Origin: a virus
IMG/VR virus record: IMGVR_UViG_3300031857_000318
Coordinates: 1 to 48,509 of that record
Length of the DNA stretch: 48,509 nucleotides
Reading direction: 5' to 3' (one strand)
Below, piece after piece: positions 12,910-47,658 of this stretch; position 1 is the stretch's first letter, and each line of letters opens with the position of its first letter. The position numbers and the translations under genes are program-made. The notes below the pieces were generated by a model. The model saw nothing but the letters and a program-made list of their open reading frames with translations, was not told the DNA's origin and did not search any database.

Positions 12910-13428
12910 ATGAAGAATCACGTCAAGTTATTCGAAGCCTTCGTTAACGAGGTTTCTAACAAAAAATGGAGAGAGATTGAGGCAAACTTACGCGGGAAAG
13001 GCATGCACCCATTCGCTGATCGTGTTGCTAGTCACAGAAAGGAGTATGCTAGCGATAAGGTAGCGAGTGAGATTAAGTTAATCGGTCGAAGCTCTTCAAG
13101 CTCTCCTTCCAAGAGGGAGTGCTATCTTTCTGTCACAGGAATAGACGTTATCCCAGATAAGTTTTTCGATCAGGCTTTTACCATAATCGGAAAAGATGCT
13201 GATTGGGGAAATGTAAACATTCTTGTGCAGGTTAATAGAAAGGCACGTAGGCTTCACCTTTTTTTAGAAGATACTCTGGCGCTGCTTGCGACCGATCGTA
13301 AAAATGCTCAAGACCTAATTGATATGGCAGTCGAGGCAGGCGTGATCGAACCCGGCACAATTGATTGGCGGACCTTTACTCAGGGTTACACTGATTTTGA
13401 TGAGATCTATACTAAAATATCATTCTAA
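12910..13428 (+). CDS. Leader-bearing late protein, unknown function
   Basis: A 172-residue basic protein with leader MKNHVKLFEAFVNEV; V-N-E is the expected cleavage site. The remainder contains a K/R- and S-rich segment (RSSSSSPSKREC, about residues 60-72) and a beta-rich centre (VNILVQVNRKARRLHLFL). Unknown function; the basic charge would suit a DNA-associated head protein. Confidence 0.78.
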   Translation: MKNHVKLFEAFVNEVSNKKWREIEANLRGKGMHPFADRVASHRKEYASDKVASEIKLIGRSSSSSPSKRECYLSVTGIDVIPDKFFDQAFTIIGKDADWGNVNILVQVNRKARRLHLFLEDTLALLATDRKNAQDLIDMAVEAGVIEPGTIDWRTFTQGYTDFDEIYTKISF

Positions 13429-33006: not shown

Positions 33007-33441
33007 TTGAAACACATACTTGAAAGAGAAGAATTCATGGACATTCAAGGCATTGACTGGAAAGGAATCAGATTCGTTCGATTAGAATCCGAAGGAAACT
33101 TAATGAATTTGGGAGTGATCCTTCCTGGAGAGAATGAACCCAATCCAGAAATACAGTTGACCATACAGGTCATCTACGATTATCTATATCAGCCTCACAT
33201 AACTCTCGGAGAAGAAATCAGAAGAAAGGGACTTGCTACCAAGATTTATCGAGCCCTAATCCAAAGGCTGGGCCATCTCTATTCTGGAAAAGGTCGTCGT
33301 CAGAACCCAATGGTGGATAAGATCTGGAACAAGCTAAAGAGTGATCCTTCGATAGACTGTGCAAGTAGCGAAATAGGTGATGCGTGCTGGACGCTAGACA
33401 ATCCTGATGGAGAAGATATCCGAGCTTTTATCGAAGGATAG
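33007..33441 (+). CDS. GNAT-like protein, TTG start with leader-like N-terminus
   Basis: The TTG at 33007 gives MKHILEREEFMDIQ, which resembles the leader and sits at the normal distance from the late box; the ATG at 33037 is an alternative without it. The 144-residue protein has 'EIRRKGLATKIYRALIQRLGH' (about residues 74-94), an acetyl-CoA loop of the R-x-x-G-x-A type, so it probably has a GNAT fold. The region before it is beta-rich as expected. Substrate unknown. Confidence 0.68.
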   Translation: MKHILEREEFMDIQGIDWKGIRFVRLESEGNLMNLGVILPGENEPNPEIQLTIQVIYDYLYQPHITLGEEIRRKGLATKIYRALIQRLGHLYSGKGRRQNPMVDKIWNKLKSDPSIDCASSEIGDACWTLDNPDGEDIRAFIEG

Positions 33442-34648
33442 TTAAGCTCCACTGTTTAAAACTTAAGACTGGTGAAAAGCTTTCGTTCGCTTGCCGAAAA
33501 TCCATAAAGATCTTTGTAGCCTCATCGCCATCAATTATAAAAGAAGAGTCCCATCCCTTAGTCTTTACATAAGGAAACTCGCTTGATCTTGAATCTACTG
33601 CGATATCTGTGACGGTTCCGATATTTACTAGCCATGAACCTCGACCTATCTCCTTAGCTAGAGCGATCTTTTCTCCTTTTCTAATGAGTCGATCAGTTTG
33701 CACCGGCAGGTTAAACATTGGTTTCTCCAACCAGTGTAACCACTTCTTGCCCACCTTTATCTGAACCTCGTTTCCAGTAGCTCCCTTAATCAGCTTAGAT
33801 TGCAGGATCGGAAGAGCTCCCCAAGTATTAAATTTTTCGTTTTTTTCAAGCAACCACACCTTTTCAGGAGTAACGTTCATCTGCTTTGGAATAGATTCAA
33901 GGCTAAAGGTTGATTCTCTTTCTAGGTCAGGTCGCATTCTGACCACTTCCTGTTTAATAACTAACGAGTCCTTTAAAAAGGATTCTAGTTGTTGTTCATA
34001 TGATTCTCCAGAATTAAAATTAAGCGAAATGATTGATATTCCTCCTGGAGTTAGAATGACCTTGTGTCTTTTCTCAAGCTCTTCACTCGATTCAAGATTT
34101 ACTGAAAAGACTCTTGAGATCTTAGCTATCTCCGCCTCTCTTTCTGATCGTAGATGTTCGATTGATTTATTAATTAAAAACTTTTTTTCGCTCGGTGAAT
34201 TACCGTCAACGTTATAAAGCTTGATCGTAGAGACCTGTGATCCCACCGAAAAAAGCCAAAAACATTTTCCCGTTCTAAAGACTTCTTTTCCGGTACTAGC
34301 ATCCGTTCTTTCATAGACTCTAAAGACTGGCTCAACTTCTTCTCCATTAGAAAGGGTGACCTTAGCTTTTCCCAATCGCAGGATTCCGATATTTCCGACT
34401 GGAACGTCGGCCTCACTAAATATCTTACTTTTAGTAGGGTCTGCTATCTTTGAAAGAACGTCTCTAAAAAACTGTTGAGCCTTTGCCTTTTCATCCGGTG
34501 AAGCTGATACTTGTTCTCCTTTCTTGTCAGTAAATCCTATTAACTCGAGCCGAGCGAGCCTAGTCTCGACTCTTTCTAAATAATGAGAACCTCCATCTTT
34601 TTTTAGAGTTAGTGCCTCGTTTATGAAACTTTGGAAATCCTTTAACAA
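33428..34648 (-). CDS. Leader-bearing late protein, TTG start, unknown function
   Basis: A 406-residue protein starting at a TTG (34648) that gives MLKDFQSFINEAL, one of the best leaders in the window; no ATG is in a position to give it. The body is mixed alpha/beta with many K and E; 'EVFRTGKCFWLFSVGS' and 'ALPILQSKLIKGATGNEV' are recognisable landmarks but no family is. The C-terminus ends 'FSPVLSFKQWSLTILR', a second leader-like motif (SFKQW) 20 residues from the end. A late box (34663-34675) on this strand overlaps the divergent late box of the gene at 34701. Confidence 0.75.
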   Translation of the reverse strand: MLKDFQSFINEALTLKKDGGSHYLERVETRLARLELIGFTDKKGEQVSASPDEKAKAQQFFRDVLSKIADPTKSKIFSEADVPVGNIGILRLGKAKVTLSNGEEVEPVFRVYERTDASTGKEVFRTGKCFWLFSVGSQVSTIKLYNVDGNSPSEKKFLINKSIEHLRSEREAEIAKISRVFSVNLESSEELEKRHKVILTPGGISIISLNFNSGESYEQQLESFLKDSLVIKQEVVRMRPDLERESTFSLESIPKQMNVTPEKVWLLEKNEKFNTWGALPILQSKLIKGATGNEVQIKVGKKWLHWLEKPMFNLPVQTDRLIRKGEKIALAKEIGRGSWLVNIGTVTDIAVDSRSSEFPYVKTKGWDSSFIIDGDEATKIFMDFRQANESFSPVLSFKQWSLTILR

Positions 34649-43963: not shown

Positions 43964-44782
43964 ATGCACAAGTACTTTAACTTCGCTAGGATATTTGAAG
44001 CTGAGCAGATGGGAGAACCCCTTATGCCAGAAGAAATGGGTACACCCAGTTCAGGAATGCCAAAGGAATCGACTGAAAAATTGGAAGATTTTGGAGCTCT
44101 CGCTGAAACTCACATATTAGAAATTACTCTTACTCAAACTGATTTAGACACGCTGAACAAAGGAGAGGCCGTTGTTAAAGAAGATGCTAAGTGGAAAAAG
44201 AAAGAGAATAAGGCTGATTATCAGAACATTAAGATGGTCATTCTAAACACTAGTAATGAAAAACAAAAAAATGATCCGTCCGCTCTATTATTTAACTTAG
44301 ACGATCGTTTAGTGAAGGATATCACTAAAGGTGTAAGTGCTGGAGTAGGAGCAGGAGTACTTACGCAAGTCTTAACTGGACTTGCTCAAAACGGCACATC
44401 TATTCCTGACATCACGGTAGAGTTCATTAAATCGACTGATATCGACACTAGCGGAAGCGTTAAGGCAGTACCGGCTTCACCTGAGCAGATTGAGAGCGGA
44501 TCCGTCCTACCGGGAGAAACTGAAGGGACTTTTCCAAATGAATCTAAATGGATGCTTTCATTCGATCAATACGTGAATGAAAGTAAAAAGAAATCGATCG
44601 ATCCTATCGCTAAAGGCATGAAAAAAGGTCCTAAAAATAAGTTAGAGGGAGATAAAATGACTAAAGGTAAGGATAAGCTAAAATCTAAATCTAAGACAAA
44701 AGAAAAATTTCCAGACTTAAGCGGGGACGGTAAAGTTACTAGAAAAGACATTCTAATGGCTAGGGGAGTAATTAAAAAATAA
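43964..44782 (+). CDS. Leader-bearing late protein with internal leader and EF-hand-like end
   Basis: A 272-residue protein with N-terminal leader MHKYFNFARIFEAEQM. A beta-rich domain spans ~45-180, and near residue 200 a second leader-like motif (MLSFDQYVNES) begins a lysine-rich tail. The tail ends with PDLSGDGKVTRKDIL, matching the calcium-binding D-x-S/D-x-D-G loop of EF-hand or dockerin repeats. The internal motif could be a second processing or targeting site, making this a two-part precursor. It is followed 7 nt later by the next gene. Confidence 0.75.
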   Translation: MHKYFNFARIFEAEQMGEPLMPEEMGTPSSGMPKESTEKLEDFGALAETHILEITLTQTDLDTLNKGEAVVKEDAKWKKKENKADYQNIKMVILNTSNEKQKNDPSALLFNLDDRLVKDITKGVSAGVGAGVLTQVLTGLAQNGTSIPDITVEFIKSTDIDTSGSVKAVPASPEQIESGSVLPGETEGTFPNESKWMLSFDQYVNESKKKSIDPIAKGMKKGPKNKLEGDKMTKGKDKLKSKSKTKEKFPDLSGDGKVTRKDILMARGVIKK

Positions 44783-44789
44783 GTTTGAT

Positions 44790-45563
44790 ATGAGAATTAA
44801 CGAGTGTTCATGTGGGTGTGGAGGGACGTCTGACAACTGTATTAGAGCTAAAGAATCTGATCTAAACTACATGTTTTTTGGAAACCTTGAAACCATGAAA
44901 AGAATCATTGACGAACTTGTTCAAATGGATAGAACTCAAATTGATGAAATCCTAAAGAACGGTCACGAATGGGCAGTAGATCACATCGCATCTTCAGCAG
45001 ACGATATCCAAGAAGTGTATAACTTTTTAAAAAATCAAGTAGCGGTTCCTGTAAATAGAAAAAGAAATCCATTTTTAGAAGAGGGCATGTTTGTCAAGAC
45101 TTTTGAAAGCTACATAAATGAAGAGTCGAATAGAGACTGGATGGAAGACGACGATGACGTAAATAAAAAAAGAATGGATCCCTTTACTATTCGATTGCAT
45201 TCAAGCAACAAACGCATGGCATGGAAGTCACTTACTGACGACCAGCGTGCTGATGCTTTGCGTATGTTAGATTTAGATGGAATAGAAGAAGATATCGCAA
45301 ACGAGTATAGCTCAGCAGACTGGTCAGATATTCCAGACTACATAAAGGATCGCATTGATTTACGAGGAATGGATCAAGCTGATCGATCTGATGATAGAAC
45401 ACTGAGAGTAGGTGATGTTGTTAAATATGGCGGAGAAGAATATCGAATTGAACGATTAGGCGAGCCAAATTCAGCAGGTCAAGTATTTCACCTCGGAAGA
45501 TCAATGTCAAATAATTACACAGCAGCATCAATTCCACAAAGAGGAACTTGGGAAAAAATTTAA
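44790..45563 (+). CDS. Late protein with Cys-rich start and internal leader
   Basis: A 257-residue protein. The first ~20 residues are cysteine-rich (CSCGCGGTSDNC), the region to ~100 is helical, and residues ~101-113 (FVKTFESYINEES) are a full leader motif placed internally. The C-terminal half (about 115-257) looks like a separate globular domain with 'LRVGDVVKYGGEEYRIERLG', a small beta-barrel-like segment. Probably translated as a fused precursor cut at Y-I-N-E. It shares the transcript of the gene at 43964. Confidence 0.72.
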   Translation: MRINECSCGCGGTSDNCIRAKESDLNYMFFGNLETMKRIIDELVQMDRTQIDEILKNGHEWAVDHIASSADDIQEVYNFLKNQVAVPVNRKRNPFLEEGMFVKTFESYINEESNRDWMEDDDDVNKKRMDPFTIRLHSSNKRMAWKSLTDDQRADALRMLDLDGIEEDIANEYSSADWSDIPDYIKDRIDLRGMDQADRSDDRTLRVGDVVKYGGEEYRIERLGEPNSAGQVFHLGRSMSNNYTAASIPQRGTWEKI

Positions 45564-45569
45564 TTGTGA

Positions 45570-45685
45570 CTAACAGTACTTGCTACGCTACCCATTAGAA
45601 CAGCGTCCCAGAGCGAGTCTTTTAATACACCCGCTATGGTTAATGGATTGTGAAACACGGTCGCCCACACTTAGCGGGTTTTTTA
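45570..45685 (+). ncRNA. Candidate structured RNA ending in a terminator
   Basis: Downstream of the gene at 44790 lies a ~116-nt sequence with two stems: ACTTGCT-ACGCT paired with AGCGT...AGCGAGT (45578-45618, one G-U pair), and ACCCGCTA paired with TAGCGGGT (45629-45679) around a 35-nt loop, followed by a T-run (45679-45684). No reading frame fills it. It may be a small RNA or the 3' end of the late mRNA; the second stem is a terminator in either case. Confidence 0.55.
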
Positions 45686-45693
45686 TATCAAAT

Positions 45694-45957
45694 TTACATT
45701 AAATCGAACTTATTACCTAATTTTCGCTCAAGCTCTTCAAGAGTATACTTTTTTGCAGCTAAGTTCAATAGGGTCATTTTTTCTTCTATAACGTAGGAAC
45801 CTTCAAGTCCAGAATTAGACTTTTGTTCTTTAGCAGGTTCACTAATCTCTTCGAGGATCTCAGCTATTTCGGAATCTGATGCATGACAATTAATGTATTC
45901 CATGACATCTTCAAATTCGATCTCAACATCGACATCAGTTTCTACTATTTTATACAT
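45694..45957 (-). CDS. Small hypothetical protein
   Basis: I take the start at 45957 (MYKIVETDVDVEIEFEDV...), which leaves a small overlap with the upstream gene; the ATG at 45966 is an alternative adding MGR. 87 residues, very acidic in the N-terminal half, helical, ending 'LEELERKLGNKFDLM'. Coupled to the gene at 45950. Confidence 0.65.
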   Translation of the reverse strand: MYKIVETDVDVEIEFEDVMEYINCHASDSEIAEILEEISEPAKEQKSNSGLEGSYVIEEKMTLLNLAAKKYTLEELERKLGNKFDLM

Positions 45958-46363
45958 TCGGCCCATTTGGTTTGCTTTTAAAGATTGCGGTTAATTTATC
46001 TAAGTTTGACGACACACTGCAGGCAGTCTGCGTAAATTTTATTCGATAAGAATGAAACTCTTTTATTCTAGGAACCTTTATTCTCATGCGATCAAAGACT
46101 TCTCTAAAACTGTGAATGTTAGACTTTACATGTTGCCAGAAAGTTCGTTCATTCATTGGAGAACTAAACGTCCACGTAGCATCAAAATACATTCCCAATT
46201 CAATGCTCGAGCCGGTCTCAAGATCATCGATTGATACTTTTACTGCATGGCGATCAGTGAACTTGTAATTTAGGACTCTTTTAAAACAAAGAAGTCGGTT
46301 TTCAGGCAGCTCAATTGAATCTTCATAATAGACTCCAATTAACTTTTCCATTTCTTCTGTCAT
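45950..46363 (-). CDS. Hypothetical protein
   Basis: A 137-residue protein with beta-rich segments ('KVSIDDLETGSSIELGMYF') and a basic C-terminus ('RIKFTQTACSVSS'). The first five residues (MTEEM) contain a second possible start. Together with its neighbours at 45694 and 46377 it forms a - strand run convergent with the putative RNA. Function unknown. Confidence 0.68.
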   Translation of the reverse strand: MTEEMEKLIGVYYEDSIELPENRLLCFKRVLNYKFTDRHAVKVSIDDLETGSSIELGMYFDATWTFSSPMNERTFWQHVKSNIHSFREVFDRMRIKVPRIKEFHSYRIKFTQTACSVSSNLDKLTAIFKSKPNGPNV

Positions 46364-46376
46364 ATTCTAGATTTAT

Positions 46377-46583
46377 TTAGTTACTTTTCCAATAGATTTC
46401 GTCGTTCACCCTTATCTCAATAATATTTGGATCTTTTTTTAGGGCGGCACAGTATCTCTCTACATTTTTTACCTTATCGTAAACTAACAAGCGACCGTCT
46501 TTTGACAAGGTTGTGACCTCAGATCCTCCTGGGATAAGACTTAGGTCATTTTTACGAAAATCATCTTTTACTTTAATTGGCAT
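46377..46583 (-). CDS. Conserved small phage protein (unknown function)
   Basis: From the ATG at 46583 the protein is 68 residues ('PIKVKDDFRKNDLSLIPGG'), then 'EVTTLSKDGRLLVYDKVKNVERYC' and 'IIEIRVNDEIYW'. The K-V-K-x-D-F / G-G-x-x-V / D-K-V-K / I-x-V-N pattern matches a small protein found in several phages. A longer in-frame start at 46607 adds hydrophobic residues but no leader. Confidence 0.72.
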   Translation of the reverse strand: MPIKVKDDFRKNDLSLIPGGSEVTTLSKDGRLLVYDKVKNVERYCAALKKDPNIIEIRVNDEIYWKSN

Positions 46584-46632
46584 AAAACAAATTATTTTTA
46601 GAATCATTCATCTAAACTTCAAGTGAGCATAA

Positions 46633-46643
46633 GATAAATAACT
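46633..46643 (+). promoter_or_regulatory. Late box upstream of 46660
   Basis: GATAAATAACT, 16 nt before the ATG at 46660. Confidence 0.6.
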
Positions 46644-46659
46644 AAAATAATTATACACA

Positions 46660-47658
46660 ATGCCGGGTAGAGTTTTAAATTTTAATGAATTTTCTGACAA
46701 ATATTCTAGCGGAAGTAACGAACCTTCTAATATCGATGACATAAAAAACGCATCTTCTAACTTTGAAGAAGGGTTTGATGATGATACTTATGATCAGCCT
46801 CAAATAGGACCAAACAGACCTGTTTCTGGAAACTATGAGACTACTCCTGCTTCTCCTGGAGAAGAGGGTTCACCTGCATTTTCATCACAAAACACCCAAG
46901 AAATGAATGCCCCTGAAGAGATGGAGTCAGATGAACCTGAGAATGAAGAATCTGAAGAGGAAGAATCTGAAGAAGAGGAGACTGATGAAGTAGAAGAAGG
47001 AAATCCAGAAGCTGGTGCAAATCCAAAAAAGAAGGTAGAAGAAGGTTTTACTCTAGTAAAAGGATTTTCACAATTCGTTAATGAAAATCATGAAGATTAT
47101 TCTTCACAGAAAGATAATGATCTTTCTTTACAAGCAGAGGAAGCAGTTGATTCACTAACGTATAGAGAAAAGAAAATCCTTTCAGAATATTTAGAATCAA
47201 ACCCCGAAGAATTCAACGAGTTGGTTAAGGATGAAATTGAAGATCTTGAGACTGGCTCAAATCCTAGAGAAAGAGACTATGAATCTTTGGGAATGGACGA
47301 AAATGAATTCAAAGTTCGAAAAATAATTCATAAGATACTTGGAGGAATTACAATTGGTGCAGGATTAAGTATTATTCCAGCAGCAATGTTTATTAGCGGA
47401 GGAGTTGCGGCAGCATTAGGAGTAGCTTCACTCTTAGGTGCAACGACCAAAGATGCAGCTTTTTGGAAAAGAGGAGGACACCATTATAAAGCACAAGATC
47501 AAGCTGAATATGAGGATTTTGGATCTAATCCTTGGGAAGATGATGAGTATTTTGAAGATTATGATCACGATCATGATGAAGATGATGATACGTGTCATAT
47601 GTGTGGAGAAGTTCCGATATCAAATGAATACGGTTATTCTTGCGGATGCAACATGTAA
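46660..47658 (+). CDS. Leader-bearing late membrane protein with internal leader and zinc ribbon
   Basis: A 332-residue protein. N-terminus MPGRVLNFNEFSDKYSS is a leader variant. Residues ~25-125 are a highly acidic, disordered E/D/P/S region. At ~133-143 (LVKGFSQFVNE) a full second leader motif occurs, followed by a helical domain, one hydrophobic helix pair around residues 226-262 (ITIGAGLSIIPAAMFISGG), an acidic stretch and a C-terminal zinc ribbon (CHMCGE, YSCGC). Only the part after ~145 resembles a folded product, so the front ~140 residues may be removed in the head. No family recognised. Confidence 0.75.
   Translation: MPGRVLNFNEFSDKYSSGSNEPSNIDDIKNASSNFEEGFDDDTYDQPQIGPNRPVSGNYETTPASPGEEGSPAFSSQNTQEMNAPEEMESDEPENEESEEEESEEEETDEVEEGNPEAGANPKKKVEEGFTLVKGFSQFVNENHEDYSSQKDNDLSLQAEEAVDSLTYREKKILSEYLESNPEEFNELVKDEIEDLETGSNPRERDYESLGMDENEFKVRKIIHKILGGITIGAGLSIIPAAMFISGGVAAALGVASLLGATTKDAAFWKRGGHHYKAQDQAEYEDFGSNPWEDDEYFEDYDHDHDEDDDTCHMCGEVPISNEYGYSCGCNM

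Follow-up and report, generated by a model that had tools for sequence, protein, structure and literature searches.

Can a T4-type capsid-targeting sequence (CTS) serve at protein positions other than the N-terminus? The question is raised by a 48.5-kb virus record (48,509 nt; the whole stretch is called the window here), in which leader motifs lie inside proteins 43964, 44790 and 46660 and near the C-terminus of protein 33428. The window is the reverse complement of positions 73824–122333 of a 125-kb parent contig (G001), matched at seven sampled points. The phage is T4-like, from an uncultured group, and its leader is of the CTS type. Both G001 and a close relative (G005) have matches over the Pfam cut-off to the gp21-type S77 protease (PF03420) and the gp23 capsid protein (PF07068). 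In the T4 CTS, targeting depends on residues 4 and 7 and processing on residues 8 and 10; the gp21 cut falls directly behind L/I-x-E (PMC9026906).

Relatives were counted at 10 loci for 44790, 33 for 46660 and 13 for 43964, some of these loci being the same contigs. Among annotated phage records, only LR756502 matched, and only for the 44790 front; no cultured relative with a 43964, 44790 or 46660 protein was found in these records. Fronts and tails of all three proteins gave nothing over the curated cut-off in Pfam and weak matches only, to families of unknown function, in PHROGs. Fold searches with two structure models (43964 of the window and the 44790 relative from locus L004) gave no match at E ≤ 0.001.

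Leader motifs in the middle of proteins

Each of the three proteins consists of a front, an internal leader and a tail:

43964..44542, plus strand: front of 43964 (residues 1–193), from alignments and an AlphaFold2 model
44549..44581, plus strand: internal leader of 43964, WMLSFDQYVNE (residues 196–206), from the profile (PSSM score 14.3), the model and homolog alignment
44582..44779, plus strand: tail of 43964, variable and Lys-rich with a dockerin-like C-terminus, from tail comparisons
44790..45080, plus strand: front of 44790 (residues 1–97), CSCGC plus a helical NYMFF...GHEWAVDHIASS domain, without an N-terminal leader
45090..45122, plus strand: internal leader of 44790, FVKTFESYINE (residues 101–111), from the profile (PSSM score 17.6) and homolog alignment
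45123..45560, plus strand: tail of 44790, species-specific; relatives have other cargo, a 35-aa module or none
46660..47043, plus strand: front of 46660 (residues 1–128), conserved across 33 loci, acidic, ending in KKKVEE
47053..47085, plus strand: internal leader of 46660, LVKGFSQFVNE (residues 132–142), from the profile (PSSM score 22.8); 21 distinct motif sequences in the family
47086..47655, plus strand: tail of 46660, variable, about 45–230 aa in relatives

To score motifs, we used a PSSM in place of a strict regular expression, which overlooked true motifs. The training set comprised N-terminal leaders only, 59 distinct sequences from G001, G002 and G005. All four motifs that the first-pass annotation had placed inside proteins were found where it put them. 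Those in mid-protein start at M197 (followed by LSFDQYVNES) in 43964, F101 (VKTFESYINEE) in 44790 and L132 (VKGFSQFVNEN) in 46660, and thus lie within residues 101–206 of proteins of 257–332 aa. Their layout, F-x-x-[FY]-[VI]-N-E, is the T4 CTS layout of aromatics, hydrophobic residue and Glu. As a yardstick, the T4 IPIII leader reaches 18.7 on this PSSM.

The chance level was set by scanning 1000 versions of the G001 proteome shuffled at constant composition. Per shuffled proteome, there were 0.099 sites scoring at least 14.3, 0.016 scoring at least 17.6, and none scoring at least 22.8. Across 8 homologs of 43964, F200, N205 and E206 are invariant; across 12 homologs of 44790, F105 is invariant and K103 and E106 nearly so. 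Single sites scoring about 10 do arise in shuffled proteomes, but the idea that an amphipathic helix resembles the leader by chance is contradicted by the scores, the conservation and the cargo exchange described below, and is barely conceivable. Reading frames are unbroken across the motif, both in the window and in two contigs identical to it, and the fused form recurs in relatives that come from other samples, which rules out assembly error. The internal motifs are confirmed as a true feature of these proteins. A further mid-protein leader, PVEEGKAYSSFQRFVNED, was seen in G001:26982–27842 (minus strand), and is conserved in G005 (75328, plus strand).

Structure models place the leader in a poorly ordered linker. 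The 43964 front has a leader-like N-terminus (MHKYFNFARIFEAE), a folded domain at about 43–156, and a linker that ends in PNE; residues 181–195 of this linker have pLDDT below 50. The internal leader is modeled with modest confidence as a helix (200–209) flanked by two disordered stretches. For the L004 relative of 44790, the leader falls inside a stretch (86–114) with pLDDT below 50, as a short helix (105–111) between a helical front and a better-predicted beta-rich tail, again with modest confidence.

Could the motif instead be the N-terminus of a second tagged protein, translated in the same frame from an internal start, as in the case of T4 gp21'? T4 gene 21 has such a start. In the 43964 family, an in-frame ATG lies no more than 10 codons from the motif in all 10 distinct sequences, just before it in nine, and AGAGGA lies upstream of the ATG in several. 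But an ATG within 10 codons upstream is found in only 5 of 10 sequences of the 44790 family and 3 of 21 of the 46660 family. We rejected internal start codons as a general explanation because they are not general across the three families, and we regard this account of the motif as highly improbable.

Exchange of tails behind the motif

In relatives of all three proteins, the front and the motif align and the sequence after the motif is replaced. Loss of the motif with both flanks kept was not seen in close relatives; these retain the motif and have a new sequence downstream of it. The one setting in which the 44790 front lacks this motif is a distant phage group, whose leaders are of a different type. 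The first-pass annotation had suggested a removable front part, and this is not supported, as conservation is in the front and variation in the tail.

Tails vary within each family. In the 44790 family, one type is a 150-aa cargo (L004–L008) and another is a 35-aa DGDxDFADAK module (L009, L029, L036, L041, L048, L052, L054 and L055); the window has its own tail, L040 has another, and L010 and L011 have none. A stand-alone copy of the window 44790 tail was sought, and none was found. Tails of the 46660 family mostly close with a conserved Cys-rich ...YGYSCGCNM (SCGCNM at the C-terminus; 46660–47658 in the window), and three relatives (L054, L055 and L057) have no tail, the protein stopping at the motif. 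Relatives of 43964 have other, unrelated tails behind the motif, and the Dockerin_1 match of the window tail is weak, below the Pfam cut-off. The dockerin-like ending of 43964, FPDxSGDGKVT+KDIL (44711–44779), also closes an unrelated protein of 584 aa (L095:2321–4075). At the other end of the neighboring protein, a Cys-rich CSCGCGG at the N-terminus is conserved in the 44790 family (44790–45563 in the window).

Three tails recur elsewhere behind an N-terminal leader. The first is represented in the window by a stand-alone gene:

12910..12951, plus strand: N-terminal leader of 12910, MKNHVKLFEAFVNE, of a stand-alone cargo gene, from the leader PSSM
12952..13425, plus strand: cargo of 12910 (VSNKKWREIE...), homologous to the tails of 44790 relatives L004–L008

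The 44790-family tails of L004–L007 match 12910 from residue 15 onward (39–46% identity, E from 1e-33 to 4e-41), directly after FVNE of its N-terminal leader. This is the clearest case, with the join immediately after the motif Glu in both settings. Each contig has a single copy of this cargo, only as its own gene in G001 and only as a tail in G002 and G005, although any of these contigs may be incomplete. A single-protein scan with the 12910 cargo matched its own contig only, and the exchange came from comparing tails.

The second case concerns L006, where the relative of 43964 has a tail of 250 aa. In L123–L125 this tail corresponds to a stand-alone gene (73% identity over 240 aa), whose N-terminal leader is of another type. 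The gene after this cargo in L124 is the 44790 front domain, and so L006 looks like a fusion of neighboring genes; here FLNE stands directly before the cargo, about 20 residues past the internal leader. In the third, the internal leader and cargo of L041 align to the N-terminus of a protein of LR756502, a 642-kb phage record (45% identity over 84 aa). That protein runs on into the 44790 front domain, such that the order is reversed.

Because these three tails recur behind N-terminal leaders, fusion of a leader-bearing cargo onto another protein is well supported. The parts do exist as separate genes with N-terminal leaders of their own, a check that had been proposed at the outset. Of the suggested head-to-tail fusion of two tagged cargos, the fusion stands, and two tags do not apply in general: only the 43964 front has a clear N-terminal leader, 46660 having a weak one and 44790 none. 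The motif might also be a scar, i.e. an N-terminal leader stranded inside when neighboring genes fused, with no present role. L006, which joins genes whose homologs adjoin in L123–L125, fits such an origin, but the motif is conserved over many divergent sequences with different tails and persists where the tail is gone, making a mere scar very unlikely.

The other phage group (L024, L026 and L123–L125) shares the 44790 front domain and has an N-terminal leader type LTExDLxxIVKxxLxE and a C-terminal NESLKDLIKKILRESL. One of its proteins (522 aa, L124:878–2446) fuses small basic domains found as separate genes in L024 and L026 and is possibly another head polyprotein.

Proposed docking and cleavage, and scaffold repeats

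We think it probable that these proteins use a T4-type CTS away from the N-terminus, with docking, a cut after Glu once the shell is made, and exchange of cargo at the join. Docking onto the prohead core would be through the aromatic pair, F-x-x-[FYW], and the prohead protease, of gp21 type (S77), would cut at the [ILV]-x-E that follows. A conserved front and an exchangeable tail would share one mid-protein tag in 43964, 44790 and 46660. After shell formation, a cut after ...[VI]-N-E would free the tail, and a second hydrophobic-x-Glu (h-x-E) just upstream of the tag, where present, would free the front. This upstream h-x-E is absent in 4 of 10 44790-family sequences, which means that the front would not be freed in every case. 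Phages would swap cargo at or near the join after Glu, and the same cargo would thus be seen either as its own leader-bearing gene or as a tail. Processing in the head is plausible, given that h-x-E follows each internal motif and that the genome encodes a gp21-type protease. C-terminal copies, with an aromatic pair and no Glu, would serve docking alone.

Such a copy is present in 33428, which also has an N-terminal leader:

33431..33472, minus strand: C-terminal motif of 33428, PVLSFKQW plus SLTILR; the targeting half, without the P1 Glu
34616..34648, minus strand: N-terminal leader of 33428, MLKDFQSFINE, from the leader PSSM

PVLSFKQW spans residues 393–400 of this 406-aa protein and scores 13.8; an ortholog (405 aa) keeps it as QVLSFSEW. 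Nothing lies behind it, contrary to the idea that it marks a polyprotein junction. We scanned for similar copies with the targeting half of the profile, ignoring Glu, at a score of at least 11 and no more than 20 residues from the C-terminus. There were 3 in G001, 5 in G005 and 2 in G002, versus about 0.2 expected in each, although several are orthologs, leaving roughly six families and a small effective sample. Glu is present in none of the 10. Counting against our reading, Glu stands in precisely the expected place in only about 60% of the N-terminal motifs that this half-profile detects. Enriched but lacking the cleavage Glu, the C-terminal copies resemble docking sites, and probably they only dock.

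Could docking be the sole function of the internal motifs as well? The motif would then be a core-binding helix of the front, an uncut structural part of the core, with the tails as tolerated extensions. The enrichment of Glu-less C-terminal copies is in line with this, as is the fact that the front is the conserved part. Moreover, L010 (FINK*) and L057 (FIRASN*) stop at the motif without Glu, and the 46660-family members of L054 and L055 have an intact YVNE and then just five residues to the end, their Glu without cargo behind being counter-evidence to cleavage for release. Yet h-x-E is retained wherever cargo follows the motif, in all four families seen, despite one-residue insertions (FTVNEA, YILSES), and the joins of exchanged cargo lie at or near Glu. 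We therefore consider docking without cleavage unlikely. On the simplest reading of these sequences, the aromatic pair would dock, and Glu would be retained when something behind it must be freed.

What might the tag dock onto? Outside the window, at G001:42022–43998 (L061, minus strand), a protease–scaffold fusion was observed. The S77 protease forms the front of this 658-aa protein, and residues ∼290–445 repeat every 14 residues (50 lag-14 identities, versus a shuffle maximum of 31). This scaffold-like part has about eleven tandem 14-residue units, e.g. NESINYAEYIKENV, that resemble the leader. The fusion is also found in G005, G011, G013 and LR756502, the repeat being stronger in the last. 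On the leader PSSM, the units have low absolute scores (best, 4.6), yet the top eight average -0.15 versus -5.7 after shuffling, where the highest value among 300 shuffles was -1.04; the likeness is hence significant but modest. Scaffold repeats have a Glu 8 residues ahead of the next aromatic. A Glu 8 residues before the first aromatic is found in 5 of 10 44790-family sequences and in 16 of 21 of the 46660 family, where the acidic front makes this spacing partly expected from composition; in the 43964 family, 9 of 10 have Glu 7 or 8 residues before it.

The resemblance of the units to the leader suggests that tagged cargo may dock by mimicking the scaffold. More tentatively, and with the balance somewhat against it, the CTS could be one scaffold unit that cargo mimics at any position, the h-x-E cuts that destroy the scaffold would free the cargo, and a mid-protein unit would make a head polyprotein with two products. 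T4 gp22 was examined for a 14-residue period, and none was found. In another phage group (G009), the leader is of a different type, and a stretch of the scaffold, EEINQLVKESLSEQ, is loosely similar to it but not long enough to serve as evidence.

Relation to known systems

Defined strictly, as an N-terminal element, a T4 CTS is not what the internal motifs are; most likely they act like one. We infer targeting, cleavage, docking on scaffold repeats and delivery into the host, the packaging and cutting on the strength of established T4 biology. Searches of open-access literature turned up no description of a mid-protein CTS, which is not proof of absence. If our reading is correct, a known head-targeting tag is no longer confined to a removable N-terminus and becomes a position-free module. 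That cargo is exchanged at the tag in nature is demonstrated. The repeats offer a testable idea for the partner of the T4 CTS, namely the scaffold, bound by resembling its own repeat. There is also a rule here for finding head-packaged proteins of uncultured large phages that N-terminal searches overlook.

The system resembles the CTS of T4 IPI, IPII and IPIII and its processing by gp21, with an aromatic pair and then hydrophobic-x-Glu, and with a gp21-type protease and gp23 encoded. As with the T4 internal proteins, varied cargos stand behind a common tag. The CTS of T4 is N-terminal, whereas the tag here also occurs inside proteins, where two parts share it, and at C-termini, where it lacks Glu. 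In T4 itself, Alt is known to carry a propeptide at its C-terminus (PMC9026906).

Polyvalent proteins of phages and conjugative elements likewise have several head-borne units per polypeptide that are proposed to be cut apart (PMC5512222). There, an encoded peptidase domain is the proposed cutter; here no such domain was found, and the joins are head-targeting tags. Polyvalent proteins are recognized by several effector or peptidase domains, and 43964, 44790 and 46660 have no Pfam family over the cut-off. Internal head proteins of giant phages (SPN3US and the phiKZ group) also undergo Glu-directed processing by a prohead protease, sometimes at several sites; in the excerpts of those papers, the propeptides are mainly N-terminal, of 20–254 residues, with A-x-E sites, and exchangeable cargo at a mid-protein tag is not described (PMC5694885, PMC10052503).

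Inside the T4 prohead, the protease cuts the core proteins gp22, gp67 and gp68 at numerous h-x-E sites, and processing at such sites is what we propose here. The scaffold of this phage differs in its fusion to the protease and in its tandem 14-residue units, which resemble the leader.
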